DNA of 17,348 nt, taken from assembly GCA_031268545.1 (NCBI GenBank), contig JAIRXD010000029.1, forward strand, positions 1-17,348, in the 5' to 3' direction. The notes under the pieces are model-generated. The model was not told where the DNA came from. It made no database searches and saw nothing but the letters and a program-made list of their open reading frames with translations. Of this stretch, positions 8,793 through 14,520 are shown one piece after another. Position numbers and translations under genes: made by a program. The stretch's first letter is position 1, and every line of letters begins with the position of its first letter. The DNA comes from Puniceicoccales bacterium. Its GTDB lineage: Bacteria; Verrucomicrobiota; Verrucomicrobiia; Opitutales; LL51.

Positions 8793-10508
8793 CTAAAATA
8801 ATTCCAGGATTCTTGTTAAAGCTGCGCCGGTGGCGATTGAAATCACAAAGGTACTGATCCATAGAGATAGGGCCATTCGCCATCCTCTTTCTTTGAAAAT
8901 CACGAGAATTGCGTTTATGCAGGGCACGAACAGGCTTATGACAACGGTGGCCATGAGAATTTGAGCGTCAGTTTTGAGTAAATTTTGCGACATATTAAAT
9001 ACTTCTACCGAAGCCATATCTCTTCTTATAATTTCCATTACGAAAATGTCAGAAAATTCCTTTGGCAAATGCAACATATTTTCGACCACAGGAGTCAGAG
9101 CCAATTGTAGCCAATGTAGTGCACCATATTCATTTAGGACCGAGATGGCTGCGGCACTTAGGACAAATATCGGGATAGACTCAATTAGAAAACTCTTGGT
9201 TCTGTGAATTGTCTTCCGGCAGCAGTTCCTGAAAGATGGCAGTCGCAGCGGAGGAATATCCATCATAAAATGAGATATCTCTCCCTTCAGGCAGAGGTTT
9301 AAAATTTTTCCGCTGATGGTTGTGATCATTAGCATCACGGCAATATACATAAAGAAAATTTCCGCCTTATTGATGGATGCCAGAAGAGAGATTATTATGC
9401 CCTGCTGAGCTGCGCAGGGTATCGATATGCCGATGATGGCCGTTGCGATTATTTTTTCTTTGGCAGTACCAAGAATTCTTGTAGAAATCGTCCCCATCGC
9501 TCCGCAGCCGAATCCTAACAACGTGGGAATTATGGCGTCGCCGTTCAGCCCCAAAAAATTGAATAATCTTCCGGTCAGAGCGGCCATCCGCGGTATGTAG
9601 CCGGAGTCTTCCAGCAGCGACATTATGATATAGAAGCCCGCTATTAAAGGCAGCAATATGCCAAACACCATCTTCACCGCCATGGTGAGTATACCGAATT
9701 CTCCCGTCAACATTTTCGCCAATAAATTATTTCCAAATATGGAGGAAACATATGCAGATATCGTAGGCACATAGGATTCATCCAGAGCGGCGACGAGGCA
9801 ATCCACCAAATGAGTGGAAATAATTGTTCCAAGTACCTTAAAAAGCACATATAAAACGCCTATTAGAATGGGCCAGCCGACTAACGGATTCAGTAGAAGA
9901 TGGTCTATTTTTCGCATTCTACCTGGAACGGCGCTTTTTGTAGACAAACATCTGTCGAGAACATCCTGGATATCCGGAGGGTCGCACAGGCACAGATGGC
10001 ATGATTTTTCTCTACTCTCCCAAATGGCCCGCCGAATTTCGTGTTTACCACTGCCTTTGGTCGCTATCGTCTTTATTACTTTAACTCCCAGCCTTTGAGA
10101 TAATTGTTCATAATCAATTGAAATTCCATTTTTTTGGGCTTCGTCAACTTGGTTCACCACCAGCAGCAGATTACATTGTGTTTCCAGCAGTTGTTTGGTG
10201 AGAATCAGGTCTCGTTCAAGGGTCAGGGCATTGACTACATTCACCACCACGTCGGCTTCATCTATGCATTTTCTTGTTATTTCCTCCAGTTGAGTATTAT
10301 TCGTAAGACTATGAATCCCTGGGGTATCTATCAGTGTTCCGAAGTGAGTTTTAGTCGTGGCTACGGCAACGCTGGTGCCGGGATAATTGCTCACCTCCTT
10401 GTACTTGCCTGATAGCATATAAAAAAGAGACGATTTTCCCACATTTGGATTACCAACCATAACAATTTTGCATTCACGGGTGAAAGGGCAGTAACGGCAA
10501 TTAGACAT
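8793..10508 (-). CDS. feoB: Ferrous iron transporter FeoB
   Basis: Inner-membrane Fe(II) uptake protein with an N-terminal GTPase domain. G1 is GNPNVGKSS (19-27), the switch region SNYPGTSVAV follows (T45), G3 is DTPG (61-64) and G4 is NQVD (119-122). After a linker, the Gate-type membrane core begins near residue 210. The two Gate motifs with conserved cysteines are GFGCG (C335) and SIPCAAQQG (C365). At 571 residues it is shorter than many FeoBs (about 700 or more), mostly through a short helical linker and lack of a C-terminal extension; both functional modules are present. The N-terminus has three early cysteines (C4, C7, C13). ATG 10508 overlaps the feoA 3' end by 8 bases, so feoA and feoB form an operon, probably controlled by the divergent regulator at 10863. 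Confidence 0.96.
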   Translation of the reverse strand: MSNCRYCPFTRECKIVMVGNPNVGKSSLFYMLSGKYKEVSNYPGTSVAVATTKTHFGTLIDTPGIHSLTNNTQLEEITRKCIDEADVVVNVVNALTLERDLILTKQLLETQCNLLLVVNQVDEAQKNGISIDYEQLSQRLGVKVIKTIATKGSGKHEIRRAIWESREKSCHLCLCDPPDIQDVLDRCLSTKSAVPGRMRKIDHLLLNPLVGWPILIGVLYVLFKVLGTIISTHLVDCLVAALDESYVPTISAYVSSIFGNNLLAKMLTGEFGILTMAVKMVFGILLPLIAGFYIIMSLLEDSGYIPRMAALTGRLFNFLGLNGDAIIPTLLGFGCGAMGTISTRILGTAKEKIIATAIIGISIPCAAQQGIIISLLASINKAEIFFMYIAVMLMITTISGKILNLCLKGEISHFMMDIPPLRLPSFRNCCRKTIHRTKSFLIESIPIFVLSAAAISVLNEYGALHWLQLALTPVVENMLHLPKEFSDIFVMEIIRRDMASVEVFNMSQNLLKTDAQILMATVVISLFVPCINAILVIFKERGWRMALSLWISTFVISIATGAALTRILELF

Positions 10509-10722
10509 AGATCATTCCTGCCAGTGATTTACTGATAGCTATGGTGCGGAAATTTAGGCCGATTACAACGGTTCCGGCTTTGGATATCAGGGTGATATCC
10601 TGGCTTACATGCAGCCCCATTGATCCGGAAATATTCGCTATTTTTCCGTTCTCGAATCCTAAAATTTTTGCAGATTCTCCCACGGATAAATCAAAAATGT
10701 TCCTCATAATTATGGCATCCAT
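10501..10722 (-). CDS. feoA: FeoA, small SH3-like partner of FeoB
   Basis: A 73-residue protein of the FeoA family, a small SH3-like cytoplasmic protein needed for FeoB activity. Visible family features are the opening LSVGESAKILGF, central GL-V-DITLISKAGTVVIGL and final strand ISKSLAGMIYV (normally involving a conserved ALR-type segment in relatives). ATG 10722 is chosen; TTG 10725 lies just upstream in frame, and M6 (ATG 10707) is also possible. Its 3' end overlaps feoB by 8 bases. The 18-bp palindrome at 10727-10744 lies directly upstream and covers the predicted transcription start. Confidence 0.88.
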   Translation of the reverse strand: MDAIIMRNIFDLSVGESAKILGFENGKIANISGSMGLHVSQDITLISKAGTVVIGLNFRTIAISKSLAGMIYV

Positions 10723-10726
10723 CAAT

Positions 10727-10744
10727 TGTTAGTTTTAACTAACA
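10727..10744. promoter_or_regulatory. Operator palindrome upstream of feoA (DtxR-family type)
   Basis: Perfect 8-bp arms around TT: TGTTAGTT-TT-AACTAACA. The TTAG...CTAA core resembles known DtxR/IdeR/MntR-family operators. It ends five bases before ATG 10722 and spans the predicted feoA start point. A second half-site ACTAACA is at 10757-10763, 19 bases from the first copy. This is the best candidate for the site bound by the divergent regulator. Confidence 0.65.
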
Positions 10745-10745
10745 T

Positions 10746-10772
10746 AGTATAGTCACACTAACATTAATGCAA
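10746..10772 (-). promoter_or_regulatory. Possible feoAB promoter
   Basis: On the minus strand, TTGCAT (10767-10772) and TATACT (10746-10751) are separated by a short 15-base spacer. The predicted start near 10739 falls inside the 10727-10744 palindrome, which would allow repression by blocking polymerase. Confidence 0.4.
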
Positions 10773-10826
10773 TAATAAAAATACTAAAAAAATTATTGAG
10801 ATATAGTTTCATGCGAAAAACGTTTA

Positions 10827-10860
10827 TTGCAACTGAATCATAATTATCATATAATGATAA
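10827..10860 (+). promoter_or_regulatory. Promoter of the DtxR-like gene with overlapping palindrome
   Basis: TTGCAA (10827-10832), 17-base spacer, perfect TATAAT (10850-10855). A palindrome TTATCAT-ATA-ATGATAA (10844-10860) covers the -10 box, so self-regulation is possible. The expected start near 10862 nearly coincides with ATG 10863, predicting a leaderless message. Confidence 0.55.
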
Positions 10861-10862
10861 AT

Positions 10863-11339
10863 ATGATAAATCTAAAAACTTCTGTGGTTAGACTGACTCC
10901 CAGCCAGGAGAACTACCTTAAAGCTATATATATGGAAGTTTCCCAGAACGGATATGCCAAAATGTCGGATGTTGCGAATTTGTTGTCCGTAAAAAAATCC
11001 TCTGTGAATGCCGCACTGAACGTGCTGGTGGATAAAAATCTCATCAATTATACACCATATTCTCAGATTACCTTGACACTTCTTGGATTCAAGAGCCCAC
11101 AAGAAATAATAAAAAAAATCGAAATGATGTACAATTTTTTATGCGAAATTCTTAAACTATCCCGAGAAGAAGCGGTGGAGAATTCCTGCAAAATAGAACA
11201 TGTGATGTCCGAGGAGCTTTTTCAAAAAATAAAAAAATTTTATGAATTTACAAAAAAAATCTATGATAATGACCCAAACTATAAAAAAAGATTGGACGAG
11301 CTGTTGTCCTTCACCTGTGCAAGTGATCCTAAGGGTTAA
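10863..11339 (+). CDS. DtxR/MntR-family metal-dependent repressor
   Basis: A 158-residue regulator with an N-terminal winged helix-turn-helix (about residues 12-75: PSQENYLKAIY, KMSDVANLLSVKKSSVNAALNVL, ITLTLLG) and a dimerisation/metal domain (about 76-145). The segment SCKIEHVMSEEL carries C109, E112 and H113, equivalent to DtxR C102, E105 and H106 of the primary metal site; the fourth ligand position (DtxR M10, MntR D8) is N17. By my alignment the DtxR ancillary-site residues H79, E83 and H98 are not conserved. There is no C-terminal SH3-like domain. ATG 10863 is chosen because the promoter's -10 box overlaps the alternative ATG 10854; both encode MIN. Divergence from feoAB and the operator there suggest iron-dependent repression of feoAB; manganese sensing is not excluded. 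Confidence 0.85.
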   Translation: MINLKTSVVRLTPSQENYLKAIYMEVSQNGYAKMSDVANLLSVKKSSVNAALNVLVDKNLINYTPYSQITLTLLGFKSPQEIIKKIEMMYNFLCEILKLSREEAVENSCKIEHVMSEELFQKIKKFYEFTKKIYDNDPNYKKRLDELLSFTCASDPKG

Positions 11340-11594: not shown

Positions 11595-11671
11595 GTCCCG
11601 TTCGTCTAGTCGGTCCAGGACACCGGATTTTCATTCCGGCAACATGGGTTCGAATCCCATACGGGATGCCA
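11595..11671 (+). tRNA. tRNA-Glu (UUC)
   Basis: Acceptor stem GTCCCGT/ACGGGAT has a G-U first pair. Anticodon stem CCGGA/TCCGG encloses loop TTTTCAT with anticodon TTC at 11630-11632. T-arm is ATGGGTTCGAATCCCAT; G73 and CCA (11669-11671) are encoded. A T8 run at 11675-11682 could end transcription. The 11340-11594 spacer before it shows no gene I can support. Confidence 0.96.
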
Positions 11672-11708: not shown

Positions 11709-11828
11709 ATGAAAAATATTGTGAACTGCAAATCTACTATTTTTATAATTGACAATTCACAGCAACCGGAAAAAGGAAACATATTTCCCTTCGATGAGTC
11801 GCAGGATATGTATAATAAAATAAAGTAA
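11709..11828 (+). pseudogene. C-terminal remnant of the tandem exported-protein family
   Basis: A 39-codon frame reads IIDNSQQPEKGNIF then DESQDMYNKIK, matching IDSSQQPEKGIIL and EEALDMCNKGKI of the gene at 12058. A 21-base block (11756-11776) is identical to 12435-12455. The signal peptide and the two-thirds of the protein before this point are missing, and the third conserved cysteine has become tyrosine, so this is a decayed or deleted third copy. It begins 37 bases after tRNA-Glu, so the breakpoint lies almost at the tRNA 3' end. Apart from this remnant and the duplicated promoter region from about 11947, the gene-free stretch 11672-12057 shows nothing I can name. Confidence 0.75.
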
Positions 11829-11946
11829 GTGCGTGTAATGGTCTTTCTCTCTATTTAACCGTAAAATATTTAGAAGCCTTATATAACATAGGTGAATTAA
11901 TTCGCAGTGCTGGATTGCGATATTCGATGCTTTGATCATAAAAAAA

Positions 11947-12090
11947 CATGGAAAGGTTGAATTTTTCAAGGTCGATGCTTTAAAATTTTAAAATAAAATA
12001 ATCAGCAGAGAATATTTTTATTGATGACTTCAGTTAGCTTTATATCATAGACTATCTATGATAGTATTTAGATTATTTATTTATTTTTGT
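11947..12090 (+). repeat. Duplicated promoter and signal-peptide region, copy A
   Basis: This block aligns with 12606-12742 with small gaps. Shared landmarks in order: GTCGATG, a TTTAAAATTTTAAA palindrome (11979-11992), AATATTTTT, TTGATGA-TTCAG, the -10 region, and the first codons encoding VFRLFI. The duplication therefore included the regulatory region with the gene. Confidence 0.8.
12021..12048 (+). promoter_or_regulatory. Promoter of the first exported paralog
   Basis: TTGATG (12021-12026), 16-base spacer, TATCAT (12043-12048). The predicted start near 12055 is about three bases before ATG 12058. The same geometry is conserved in the second copy, which supports the call. Confidence 0.55.
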
Positions 12091-12552
12091 TTAGCATTTA
12101 GTCTATTCGTCGGCCAAGAAGCCCAGGCTAATTTCGCTTTCGCATTGGTCGGAAAACGTAATAATGAATCAGAGGAAAGAAATAGACCAGCAGAGGTAGC
12201 TGGATTAGTTGTGCTACATAGCAACGGAGATTATAAATATGAATTGCCATTGATCGATTTTTTGGATTCCGAAAATTACCTTAATTATCTTAGGGCCTTA
12301 GGCCTTGAAGATGATCAAGACAATAGAGATGAATATGATCGTAGGTGTGTGGAAGAGCAAATTGGATGCCAGGTAAATGGCCCATTTTGGAATGATCTGC
12401 TGGATTCACGTTTTATTGTTTTTTCGATAGACAGTTCACAGCAACCGGAAAAAGGGATAATATTGTCCGTCGAAGAGGCACTGGATATGTGTAATAAAGG
12501 TAAAATAAATCAAGAATATATTTCGAATATAATTATGTTCGTAGAGCCTTAG
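12058..12552 (+). CDS. Exported protein of a tandem lineage-specific family, copy 1
   Basis: A 164-residue protein I cannot assign to a known family. It begins with a signal peptide (MIVFRLFIYFCLAFSLFVGQ, then EAQA before NF), with likely cleavage after QA near residue 24. It shares with the next gene the blocks VVLHSNGDYKYELPLIDF, EEQIGCQVNGP and QQPEKGIILSVEEA, and three cysteines (C97, C104, C145). The mature protein is small, acidic in the middle and probably periplasmic or secreted. It is the first intact member after the remnant at 11709-11828, and lies between tRNA-Glu and the secretion ATPase gene. No Shine-Dalgarno site is seen; the promoter predicts a near-leaderless message. Function unknown. 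Confidence 0.8.
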   Translation: MIVFRLFIYFCLAFSLFVGQEAQANFAFALVGKRNNESEERNRPAEVAGLVVLHSNGDYKYELPLIDFLDSENYLNYLRALGLEDDQDNRDEYDRRCVEEQIGCQVNGPFWNDLLDSRFIVFSIDSSQQPEKGIILSVEEALDMCNKGKINQEYISNIIMFVEP

Positions 12553-12605
12553 GAGTGGCCTGTCATTGGTTAATAATCTACTGGGGCGATAATTAAAGCT
12601 CTGGC

Positions 12606-12742
12606 CATAGGAAGATTATGGTTTATAGAGTCGATGTTTTAAAATTTTAAATAATCGGTAAAAATATTTTTGTTGATGATTTCAGCTGGTTTTATATTAT
12701 AGATCGCCCATGGCAGTGTTTAGATTATTTATTTGTTGTTAT
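12606..12742 (+). repeat. Duplicated promoter and signal-peptide region, copy B
   Basis: Counterpart of 11947-12090. It contains GTCGATG, the same 14-base palindrome (12638-12651), AATATTTTT, TTGATGATTTCAG, the -10 box and the start of the second paralog. A four-base gap relative to copy A follows the palindrome. Confidence 0.8.
12673..12700 (+). promoter_or_regulatory. Promoter of the second exported paralog
   Basis: TTGATG (12673-12678), 16-base spacer, TATTAT (12695-12700). ATG 12710 follows after nine bases, exactly the spacing seen in copy 1. Confidence 0.55.
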
Positions 12743-13345
12743 ATACTCCTATTGCTTGCCAGCCAAAGGACCCAGGCTAATTTCATTAATGCAGTGGTTA
12801 TAGAATATGATAGATTGTTGCAAAAACTAGTGGGTATAGTTGTGTTGCAATCCAATGATAGTGAAGATTATAAATATAGATTGCCCTTGGTTGATTTATC
12901 GAACTCCAGGGATCACTTTGATTATTCTGAAAATGATCTGGATGCTAAAGCAGCCTATAGATGTATGTATGTGGGAGAGCAAATTGGATGCCAGGTGGAG
13001 GGCCCGCTTTTGTATAGCCCATTTGGTGAATTTATTATTTTTGCGATGGTCGATCCACGACAGTCTACACTGCAATCAGATAAACCGGATAGACAACAGC
13101 TAGAAAAAGGAATAGTATTGTCCCTCGATGGGGCGCGGAGTATATGCGATGAAGGAAAAATAGCACCGCAATCCGCAAGCGCCATCATTTCTGTGGTGGA
13201 ATATTTTAGAGCTTTGCAGGCCAGATTAGGAAAATCATTACCCATGGATACCGAAGGGCGAGCGCTGCTTAAAGGACAAGTACTTGGAATTTGGCCATAC
13301 TATTCCAGTAGTGGATTTACAATTGTTGATAGCTTTGGTAGTTAA
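12710..13345 (+). CDS. Exported protein of a tandem lineage-specific family, copy 2
   Basis: A 211-residue paralog of the gene at 12058. The signal peptide is MAVFRLFICCYILLLLASQ then RTQA before NF, with likely cleavage near residue 23. Shared blocks are VVLQSNDSEDYKYRLPLVDL, GEQIGCQVEGP and QLEKGIVLSLDGA. The three cysteines correspond (C85, C94, C146), but the first pair is two residues further apart than in copy 1. It has a C-terminal extension of about 45 residues (from about EYFRALQARLG to the end) that copy 1 lacks, which ends in an aromatic/Ser-rich stretch. Its stop lies five bases from the stop of the convergent secretion ATPase gene. No known domain recognised; periplasmic or secreted by its signal peptide. 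Confidence 0.8.
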   Translation: MAVFRLFICCYILLLLASQRTQANFINAVVIEYDRLLQKLVGIVVLQSNDSEDYKYRLPLVDLSNSRDHFDYSENDLDAKAAYRCMYVGEQIGCQVEGPLLYSPFGEFIIFAMVDPRQSTLQSDKPDRQQLEKGIVLSLDGARSICDEGKIAPQSASAIISVVEYFRALQARLGKSLPMDTEGRALLKGQVLGIWPYYSSSGFTIVDSFGS

Positions 13346-13350
13346 AATTT

Positions 13351-14520
13351 TTATACTTTATCCAGTTCTTGGATGCTGGTTTGGCCATTTTTTACGGCGG
13401 TGATTGCCTGGGCTTTTAATGGCACAAGTCCCTGGGCCATAGATATTTTTTGCAGACTTTCCAGTGAGCCCATGTCCCTTATTGCCTGCTTAATTTTTCC
13501 ATTGATATCTAGCCATTCGTATATTCCGAACCTGCCAGAATAACCGGTGTTATTGCATTTTTGGCAACCGTGACCGATATAATGCTTAGAATCAACAAGT
13601 TCTGGATACTTTATTGCGATGGATTTATCAATGGATGCCTTTTTACAGTTTTCGCATATTTTTCGCAGAAGTCTCTGGGCAAGAATGCCGCGGAGGGTAT
13701 CGGAGATTAAAAACGGTTCAATGCCCATGTCGATGAGTCTTGTCACGGCTCCCGGTGCGTCATTTGTATGCAGTGTCCCGAGGACTAGATGTCCTGTAAG
13801 TGCCGCTTGTATAGCGATTTTTGCTGTGATTGAGTCCCTCAATTCCCCCAGTAAAATCTTATCCGGGTCGTGCCTTAGAAATGCCCTGAGAGCTCTTTCA
13901 AAGGATAGACCTAGTTCATCTCGTACGTTAACTTGCACAATGCCATCGACTTCGTATTCCACCGGATCTTCAATGGTAAGAATTTTCGTTTCCTCATTGT
14001 TTATCTCCCGAAGTGCACTATAGAGAGTGGTGGTTTTACCGCTACCCGTTGGTCCCGTTGTCAATAAAATTCCGGATCCTGTCTGTAAATTTTCACGAAT
14101 TTTTGTTAATATATCTCCAGAAATTCCCATTTTATCCAGATCAAAATGCCAGGAATTTTTATCCAATATGCGCAGGACGACGCTTTCGCCGTATTGGGTT
14201 GGCAGAGTGGAGACGCGGAAATCCACCGTTCGCCCCAGATAGGTCTTCTCGATGTGGCCATCCTGAGGGAGTCTTTTTTCCGCAAGATCCAGATGGGCAA
14301 GGGTTTTTATCCTTGAAATTATTGCATCCCCCAGGTGTCTATCCGGTGCCGGGAGTTCCTGTAATACACCATCCACCCGCAGTCTTATGGCGACGCTACC
14401 GGTAAAGGTTTCGAAATGAGCATCCGAGGCCCGGTGGGCGATGGCGTGTTCCAAAACGTGATCGACGAATTTTATTATCGGAGGCTCGATATCCCAGGAC
14501 ATATATTTAGGTTTGGGCAT
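13351..14520 (-). CDS. GspE/PilB-type secretion or pilus assembly ATPase (short form)
   Basis: A 389-residue hexameric ATPase of the type II secretion/type IV pilus family. Order: N-terminal N2-like domain (DAHFETFTGSVAIRLRVDGVLQ), Walker A GPTGSGKTT (K162), Asp box ILTIEDPVEYE, Walker B-like ILLGELRD (E226), His box TGHLVLGTLHTN, and a zinc-type tetracysteine C289-C292 and C319-C322. The zinc motif points to the GspE/PilB extension ATPases rather than the PilT retraction type. The usual N-terminal MshEN/GspE-N1 domain is absent, so the protein is about 150 residues shorter than typical GspE/PilB. After Walker B the usual D-x-E-T-A reads D-S-I-T-A (I231). No other secretion or pilus genes are in the window. 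It is convergent with the exported paralogs and divergent from rseP. Confidence 0.92.
   Translation of the reverse strand: MPKPKYMSWDIEPPIIKFVDHVLEHAIAHRASDAHFETFTGSVAIRLRVDGVLQELPAPDRHLGDAIISRIKTLAHLDLAEKRLPQDGHIEKTYLGRTVDFRVSTLPTQYGESVVLRILDKNSWHFDLDKMGISGDILTKIRENLQTGSGILLTTGPTGSGKTTTLYSALREINNEETKILTIEDPVEYEVDGIVQVNVRDELGLSFERALRAFLRHDPDKILLGELRDSITAKIAIQAALTGHLVLGTLHTNDAPGAVTRLIDMGIEPFLISDTLRGILAQRLLRKICENCKKASIDKSIAIKYPELVDSKHYIGHGCQKCNNTGYSGRFGIYEWLDINGKIKQAIRDMGSLESLQKISMAQGLVPLKAQAITAVKNGQTSIQELDKV

Follow-up and report, generated by a model that had tools for sequence, protein, structure and literature searches.

Two adjacent genes of a Puniceicoccales bacterium, P1 and P2, together with the broken remnant of a third, are best explained, with a confidence slightly short of even, as a lineage-restricted family of small, Sec-exported, partner-facing proteins, probably stabilised by disulphides, which undergoes birth and death at a plastic spot linked to a tRNA gene. 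The homology of the copies, their duplication together with an upstream block, the decay of one of them, the coding constraint, the fast change and the presence in a second species at the corresponding position are directly supported; the function of the P-family is what we infer.

The window, that is, the whole stretch of DNA analysed, comprises 17,348 bases of contig C43, from an assembly of 665 kb that is 84% complete (G000). The bacterial family was sampled with 14 genomes, two of which represent the genus of the window, g1 (G000 itself and G001, a Puniceicoccales MAG), and twelve the sister genus, g2. As assembled, the genomes of this family measure 0.6-1.1 Mb. Relatives identified through their antiporter are Puniceicoccales Po218_bin25 (JAITNS, 60% identity) and an uncultured Verrucomicrobia MAG (CAMWJR, 59%). 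A passage of PMC11257099 gives JAIRJQ-JAITXW as the accession range of termite-gut MAGs, and it is by this range alone that JAITNS is tied to them. In a passage of PMC8204192, the 'Nucleococcus cluster' is described as verrucomicrobial endosymbionts of protists, termite-gut protists included, and an unpublished genome of about 1 Mb is mentioned.

The gene pair, its upstream DNA and the third copy

P1 (12058..12552, forward strand, 164 aa) and P2 (12710..13345, forward strand, 211 aa) lie between the landmark of the locus, a tRNA-Glu gene with the anticodon UUC (11595..11671, forward strand, located with ARAGORN), and the convergent gene of a GspE/PilB-type ATPase (13351..14520, reverse strand), whose best match, GspE with an E-value of 5e-149, falls under the curated cut-off of that model. 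The two proteins share 67 identities over 177 columns (38%, E 3e-28 in a single comparison) and are real paralogues. The blocks VFRLFI, DYKY.LPL.D, EQIGCQV.GP and EKGI.LS are all present in the alignment, and some 45 additional aa at the C-terminus set P2 apart from P1. The mature proteins contain three cysteines each (97, 104 and 145 in P1; 85, 94 and 146 in P2), and the homologue from G001 contains five; two cysteines are invariant in the alignment of the three sequences.

According to a simple rule for hydrophobicity and cleavage sites, the N-termini of all three proteins resemble signal peptides, each with a hydrophobic core and, in the same position, an Ala-X-Ala-like site. The candidate cleavage sites fall between AQA and NF in P1, between TQA and NF in P2, and between SYA and IK in the G001 protein. 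None of these likely sites is followed by a lipobox cysteine, and a Sec-exported lipoprotein was therefore rejected. A simple hydropathy rule finds no later membrane segment in P1 or P2.

The similarity of the two copies extends into the upstream DNA, where 12630-12740 aligns to 11971-12088 with 77% identity over 118 columns (E 3e-21). The shared upstream part measures 80-87 bp and corresponds to 11971..12057 in front of copy 1 and to 12630..12709 in front of copy 2, both on the forward strand. Each block holds a TTGATG/TATNAT pair with 16-nt spacing (12021-12048 and 12673-12700) that ends 9 nt before the ATG, so that a promoter was probably copied along with the gene and the mRNA leader would be very short. 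Promoter-like patterns of this kind are weak evidence, 14 being found in the region against 7.8 +/- 3.2 in shuffles. With E-values up to 10 admitted, the 95-nt block of copy 2 matches G000 at 15 places and G001 at 9, those outside the two copies being all short, with a best E-value of 0.0024. Inspection of four such loci revealed the motif in two, of which one is AT-rich and the other precedes a 112-aa ORF. The spacer that follows tRNA-Glu in G001 contains an exact 15-nt match (L013 8984-8998), perhaps a leftover promoter; a search of this spacer for a protein remnant gave nothing above the shuffle maximum.

The stretch at 11740..11828 (forward strand) is, by DNA and protein similarity, a decayed third copy, namely a broken C-terminal piece nearest to copy 1. 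It is 79% identical to copy 1 over 90 columns with a score of 83, which none of 500 mononucleotide shuffles reaches (maximum 31). A protein search of the genome with P1 traces it back to 11715 (11715-11828), and the profile built from the three-sequence alignment A1 recovers it as well. Close to its end the relic shows a 1-nt gap, and a Tyr replaces the last conserved Cys of copy 1; neither a signal peptide nor an upstream block was found with 11740-11828. The sequence-only reading, which had described two adjacent paralogous genes for signal-peptide proteins with four shared blocks and three cysteines each, duplicated with their promoter and accompanied by a truncated third copy, thus holds in these respects, the signal peptides by the simple rule and the promoter by pattern only.

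Relatives, rate of change and age

In G000 the P-family is confined to P1, P2 and the relic, and since this genome is 84% complete, copies elsewhere could be missing. A search of 53 genomes with P2, its own included, yields eight with a match when E-values up to 1 are admitted. Apart from G000, the single convincing match is in G001 (E 9e-8), where the gene is single-copy and encodes 155 aa counted from the ATG; the six others have E-values of 0.04-0.5. With the three-sequence profile, matches at E 0.01 are obtained in three of the 372 genomes of the order, namely G000, G001 and, weakly, G246. The G246 match (E 8.9e-4) lies within an open frame of 1166 aa unlike the P-family and was set aside as chance. 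Among 5.8 billion proteins, P2 retrieves only itself, and the profile retrieves P1, P2 and the hypothetical protein LBH49_01260 (Puniceicoccales bacterium, on a 63,277-base contig). No more than three intact sequences are known.

No known family had been recognised for the proteins, and none in Pfam or NCBIfam fits them. Even at E up to 10, where the HMMER filters drop most weak matches, Pfam gives no family for any of the three members. Matches to PHROGs have E-values of 0.067 or worse, a pattern-based scan of IMG/VR contigs confirmed no viral relatives, and none of the papers among the literature matches listed (titles and beginnings of abstracts) deals with these genes or their locus. AlphaFold2 models of P1 with alignment A1 (mean pLDDT 54.6) and of the G001 protein (40.6) were too weak for use, and the best Foldseek match of the P1 model (E 0.19) was disregarded; predicted structures of this quality are too weak to choose between the readings considered below.

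Between P1 and P2, dS is 0.89 and dN/dS is 0.51 (bootstrap 95% interval 0.30-0.82). Relative to G001, the corresponding values are 1.74 and 0.29 (0.11-0.49) for P1 and 1.54 and 0.46 (0.19-0.73) for P2, these figures being rough because dS above 1 is near saturation. Ten neighbour genes compared between G000 and G001 have dS of 0.92-1.48 and dN/dS of 0.07-0.18. All six bootstrap 95% intervals (whole and mature proteins, three pairs) lie below 1, and in every one of the six tests no fewer than 1993 of the 2000 bootstraps do so too. The ORFs remain uninterrupted in spite of seven gap blocks in each protein pair. The dN/dS values of 0.29-0.51 show that the genes are coding and constrained and that their rate of change exceeds that of every one of the ten neighbours; being below 1, they give no proof of positive selection. 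Within the genus, the P-family proteins are 33-44% identical. The fast evolution proposed from the sequence alone is supported by these rates, but the proposed recency of the duplication is not: the dS of P1 and P2 is just under that of the neighbour genes and about half of the family's dS to G001, so the duplication is old. It is probably younger than the split of the g1 species.

The main rival to a partner-facing family is an ordinary protein of the periplasm or envelope whose constraint has weakened while the genome shrinks; duplication, length change and decay would then be drift, and no outside partner would be involved. Such a protein, which we consider somewhat unlikely, would fit the dN/dS values clearly below 1, the small genomes of the bacterial family, the decay of one copy and the occurrence of the P-family in both g1 genomes. 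However, the ten neighbour genes are not equally relaxed, and a reduced genome here keeps two copies, both complete with an upstream block.

At the beginning of the window, an ORF at 1-894 has no Pfam family and a very basic C-terminal tail with many Arg and Lys residues. Only 257 of its bases align to G001, with 67% identity, as compared to 77-81% for the main neighbouring blocks, and it may also be fast-changing.

The flank of tRNA-Glu in the two genera

The P-family genes sit 3' of tRNA-Glu(UUC), and the order in G001 (tRNA-Ser, tRNA-Glu, family gene, PilB-type ATPase, RseP, tRNA-Val, FtsK) is the same as in G000, with the ATPase gene flanking the locus on the same side. We located tRNA-Glu(UUC) in 10 of the 14 genomes of the bacterial family, namely both of g1 and 8 of the 12 of g2. 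In those eight, the next tRNA gene is tRNA-Glu(CUC). The two tRNA-Glu genes are 100-308 bases apart in G011, G003, G006 and G004, which leaves no room for an ORF of such size, and 704-2047 bases apart in G010, G005, G002 and G008, where exported-like ORFs of 186-607 aa lie between them. These ORFs form one family of their own with variable tails; G002 has two of them, the first broken by a TGA stop. The occupant in G008 (L084 1621-3444, 607 aa) has a repetitive tail and a hydrophobic C-terminus. On the G008 contig that holds the PilB-type ATPase, two exported-like ORFs with similar N-termini, a short and a longer one (L048 6901-7095 and 7187-7984), may be a further tandem pair in which one copy is truncated.

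A profile of the g2 family matches 5 of the 372 genomes of the order: G002, G005, G008 and G010, always at the tRNA-Glu spot and, at E 0.01, nowhere else in these four, and weakly G071, where the match (E 0.0023) lies within an 844-aa open frame unlike either family and was taken as chance. In the protein database the same profile retrieves three proteins, one named Puniceicoccales bacterium and one on a 2,365-base contig. The g2 family thus resembles the P-family in lying on the same side of the same tRNA gene, in being exported-like and orphan, and in having a broken tandem copy (G002), but its tails are variable, with total lengths of 186-607 aa, and no homology between the two is detectable. 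Both the location at tRNA-Glu and the presence of a different exported-like orphan family there in g2 are new and were absent from the sequence-only reading.

To these observations we added a control, designed after the pattern had been seen, with 48 loci and a crude rule (an exported-like ORF, 100 aa or longer, whose start is no more than 400 nt away). Such an ORF follows 4 of 9 tRNA-Glu(UUC) genes versus 4 of 38 genes for other tRNAs (p 0.033, Fisher test). Flanks below 500 nt, that of tRNA-Glu in G011 included, and duplicate flanks were excluded; the rule misses G001, where the ORF starts at 453 nt, and G002, whose first copy is broken. Of the four control positives, two lie antisense within RseP, and only tRNA-Val was chosen deliberately, the other control tRNA genes having come along with other loci. 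The enrichment for exported-like ORFs at tRNA-Glu(UUC) is suggestive only. The different exported-like family beside this tRNA gene in g2 hints at a site of turnover for such proteins. A stronger version, in which the 3' flank would be a long-lived slot where one exported partner-facing protein has been renewed so rapidly, through tandem duplication, divergence and decay, that its sequence is unrecognisable between the sister genera, is in our estimate rather unlikely.

Improbable to a greater degree is that the g1 and g2 proteins at this spot are simply one ancestral exported gene, kept in place and changed beyond recognition. The position 3' of tRNA-Glu(UUC), the exported-like character, the tandem or broken copies in some genomes of both genera, and the tRNA-Ser(GGA) upstream in both g1 genomes and on the contigs of G010 and G004 in g2 would be accounted for in this way. 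The ATPase is 85% identical within g1 and 61-69% identical to its orthologues in the seven g2 genomes that have a clear one; by a hand estimate from these values, proteins at 33-44% within a genus would fall to about 12% or less between genera, so that the missing similarity is compatible with a common origin. On the other hand, hhalign gives the two profiles a probability of 0.1% (E 0.73), the downstream neighbours differ (the PilB-type ATPase in g1 versus tRNA-Glu(CUC) in g2), and such a gene is lacking at this spot in four of the eight g2 genomes examined.

It is very improbable that the genes were brought in by a mobile element or genomic island that entered at tRNA-Glu, as the tRNA-adjacent position and the presence or absence in g2 might suggest. 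Also in favour is a FeoB-FeoA-DtxR cassette (window 8793-11339) between tRNA-Ser and tRNA-Glu, which adjoins the tRNA in G000 and is missing at that place in G001. With FeoB present in 2 of the 14 genomes, and with 80% identity over 2537 bases between this cassette and one from G005 of g2, its horizontal transfer is suggested. Against an island stand the 3' end of the tRNA, whose one match in the window at up to 3 mismatches is the tRNA itself, the interval's ORFs, among which no integrase was seen by eye in the part scanned, the 372 genomes of the order, without a convincing match outside g1, and the IMG/VR contigs, without a relative in the pattern-based scan. Spurious ORFs or a non-coding repeat, for which the missing Pfam or NCBIfam family and the weak AlphaFold models might speak, have next to no chance, being already contradicted by the bootstraps below 1 in all six tests and by conservation in a second species.

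Proposed role and comparison with known systems

The setting of the favoured partner-facing family is the plastic spot between tRNA-Glu(UUC) and a pilus or secretion ATPase gene in a genome-reduced Puniceicoccales bacterium. The copies would arise by tandem duplication with upstream DNA, diverge in length and decay. Their products would be exported by Sec via the signal-peptide-like N-termini, fold in the periplasm, where the two invariant cysteines would pair, and act either there or outside the cell through a secretin-type channel; secretin domains occur in all 14 genomes of the bacterial family. Binding to an ever-changing partner, a host or a neighbouring microbe, would account for the fast yet constrained evolution and for the turnover of copies. 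Secretion directed at a host or a competitor is putative but plausible, given the signal-peptide-like N-termini, the rate of change and the type of organism. Gene loss is the expectation for genome-reduced symbionts, and an exported-like orphan that is kept, copied and fast-changing probably matters to the association. If it is true that a tRNA-linked slot hosts exported proteins across genera, it would provide a simple positional finder for interaction candidates that sequence searches miss.

Among known systems, the C-terminal 35-74 residues of the P-family resemble the segment 'sQrleeGkiLtleEilklyesGKv' of STIV-B116-like proteins (PDB 2x4i, 6scf and 2j85), which we take to be DUF1874, a type III anti-CRISPR ring nuclease. 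The PDB profile match has E-values of 0.02-0.11 and covers part of the length only, leaving the N-terminal part of the P-family unmatched. DUF1874 proteins are cytoplasmic, and the signal-peptide-like N-termini of all three P-family proteins, by the simple rule, argue against such a location. Membership was rejected, there being no match to a curated model, none in Pfam at E up to 10 and a PDB E-value of 0.02, and the resemblance is probably due to chance or to a short shared motif. An N-terminal stretch also matches Piwi-like protein 1 chains (PDB 3o7v, 3o3i, 2l5c and 2xfm), presumably PAZ domains, which are eukaryotic, cytoplasmic and RNA-binding; the E-values of 0.16-0.68 are within chance, and this candidate was rejected.

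Ankyrin-repeat effectors were likewise rejected, as none of the three P-family proteins has a Pfam match. At E 1e-5, Ank_2 is found in neither of the two g1 genomes versus all twelve of g2, where one genome has up to 78 matches; it also matches 5 of 14 control genomes, E. coli included. Its absence from the two g1 genomes makes the effector-like context weak here. Lineage-restricted secreted orphan families are a general kind in host-associated bacteria. The P-family differs from them in that its target and delivery route are putative and in that Ank_2 was not found in g1, but it resembles them in being likewise small, exported-like, fast-evolving and present in tandem copies.
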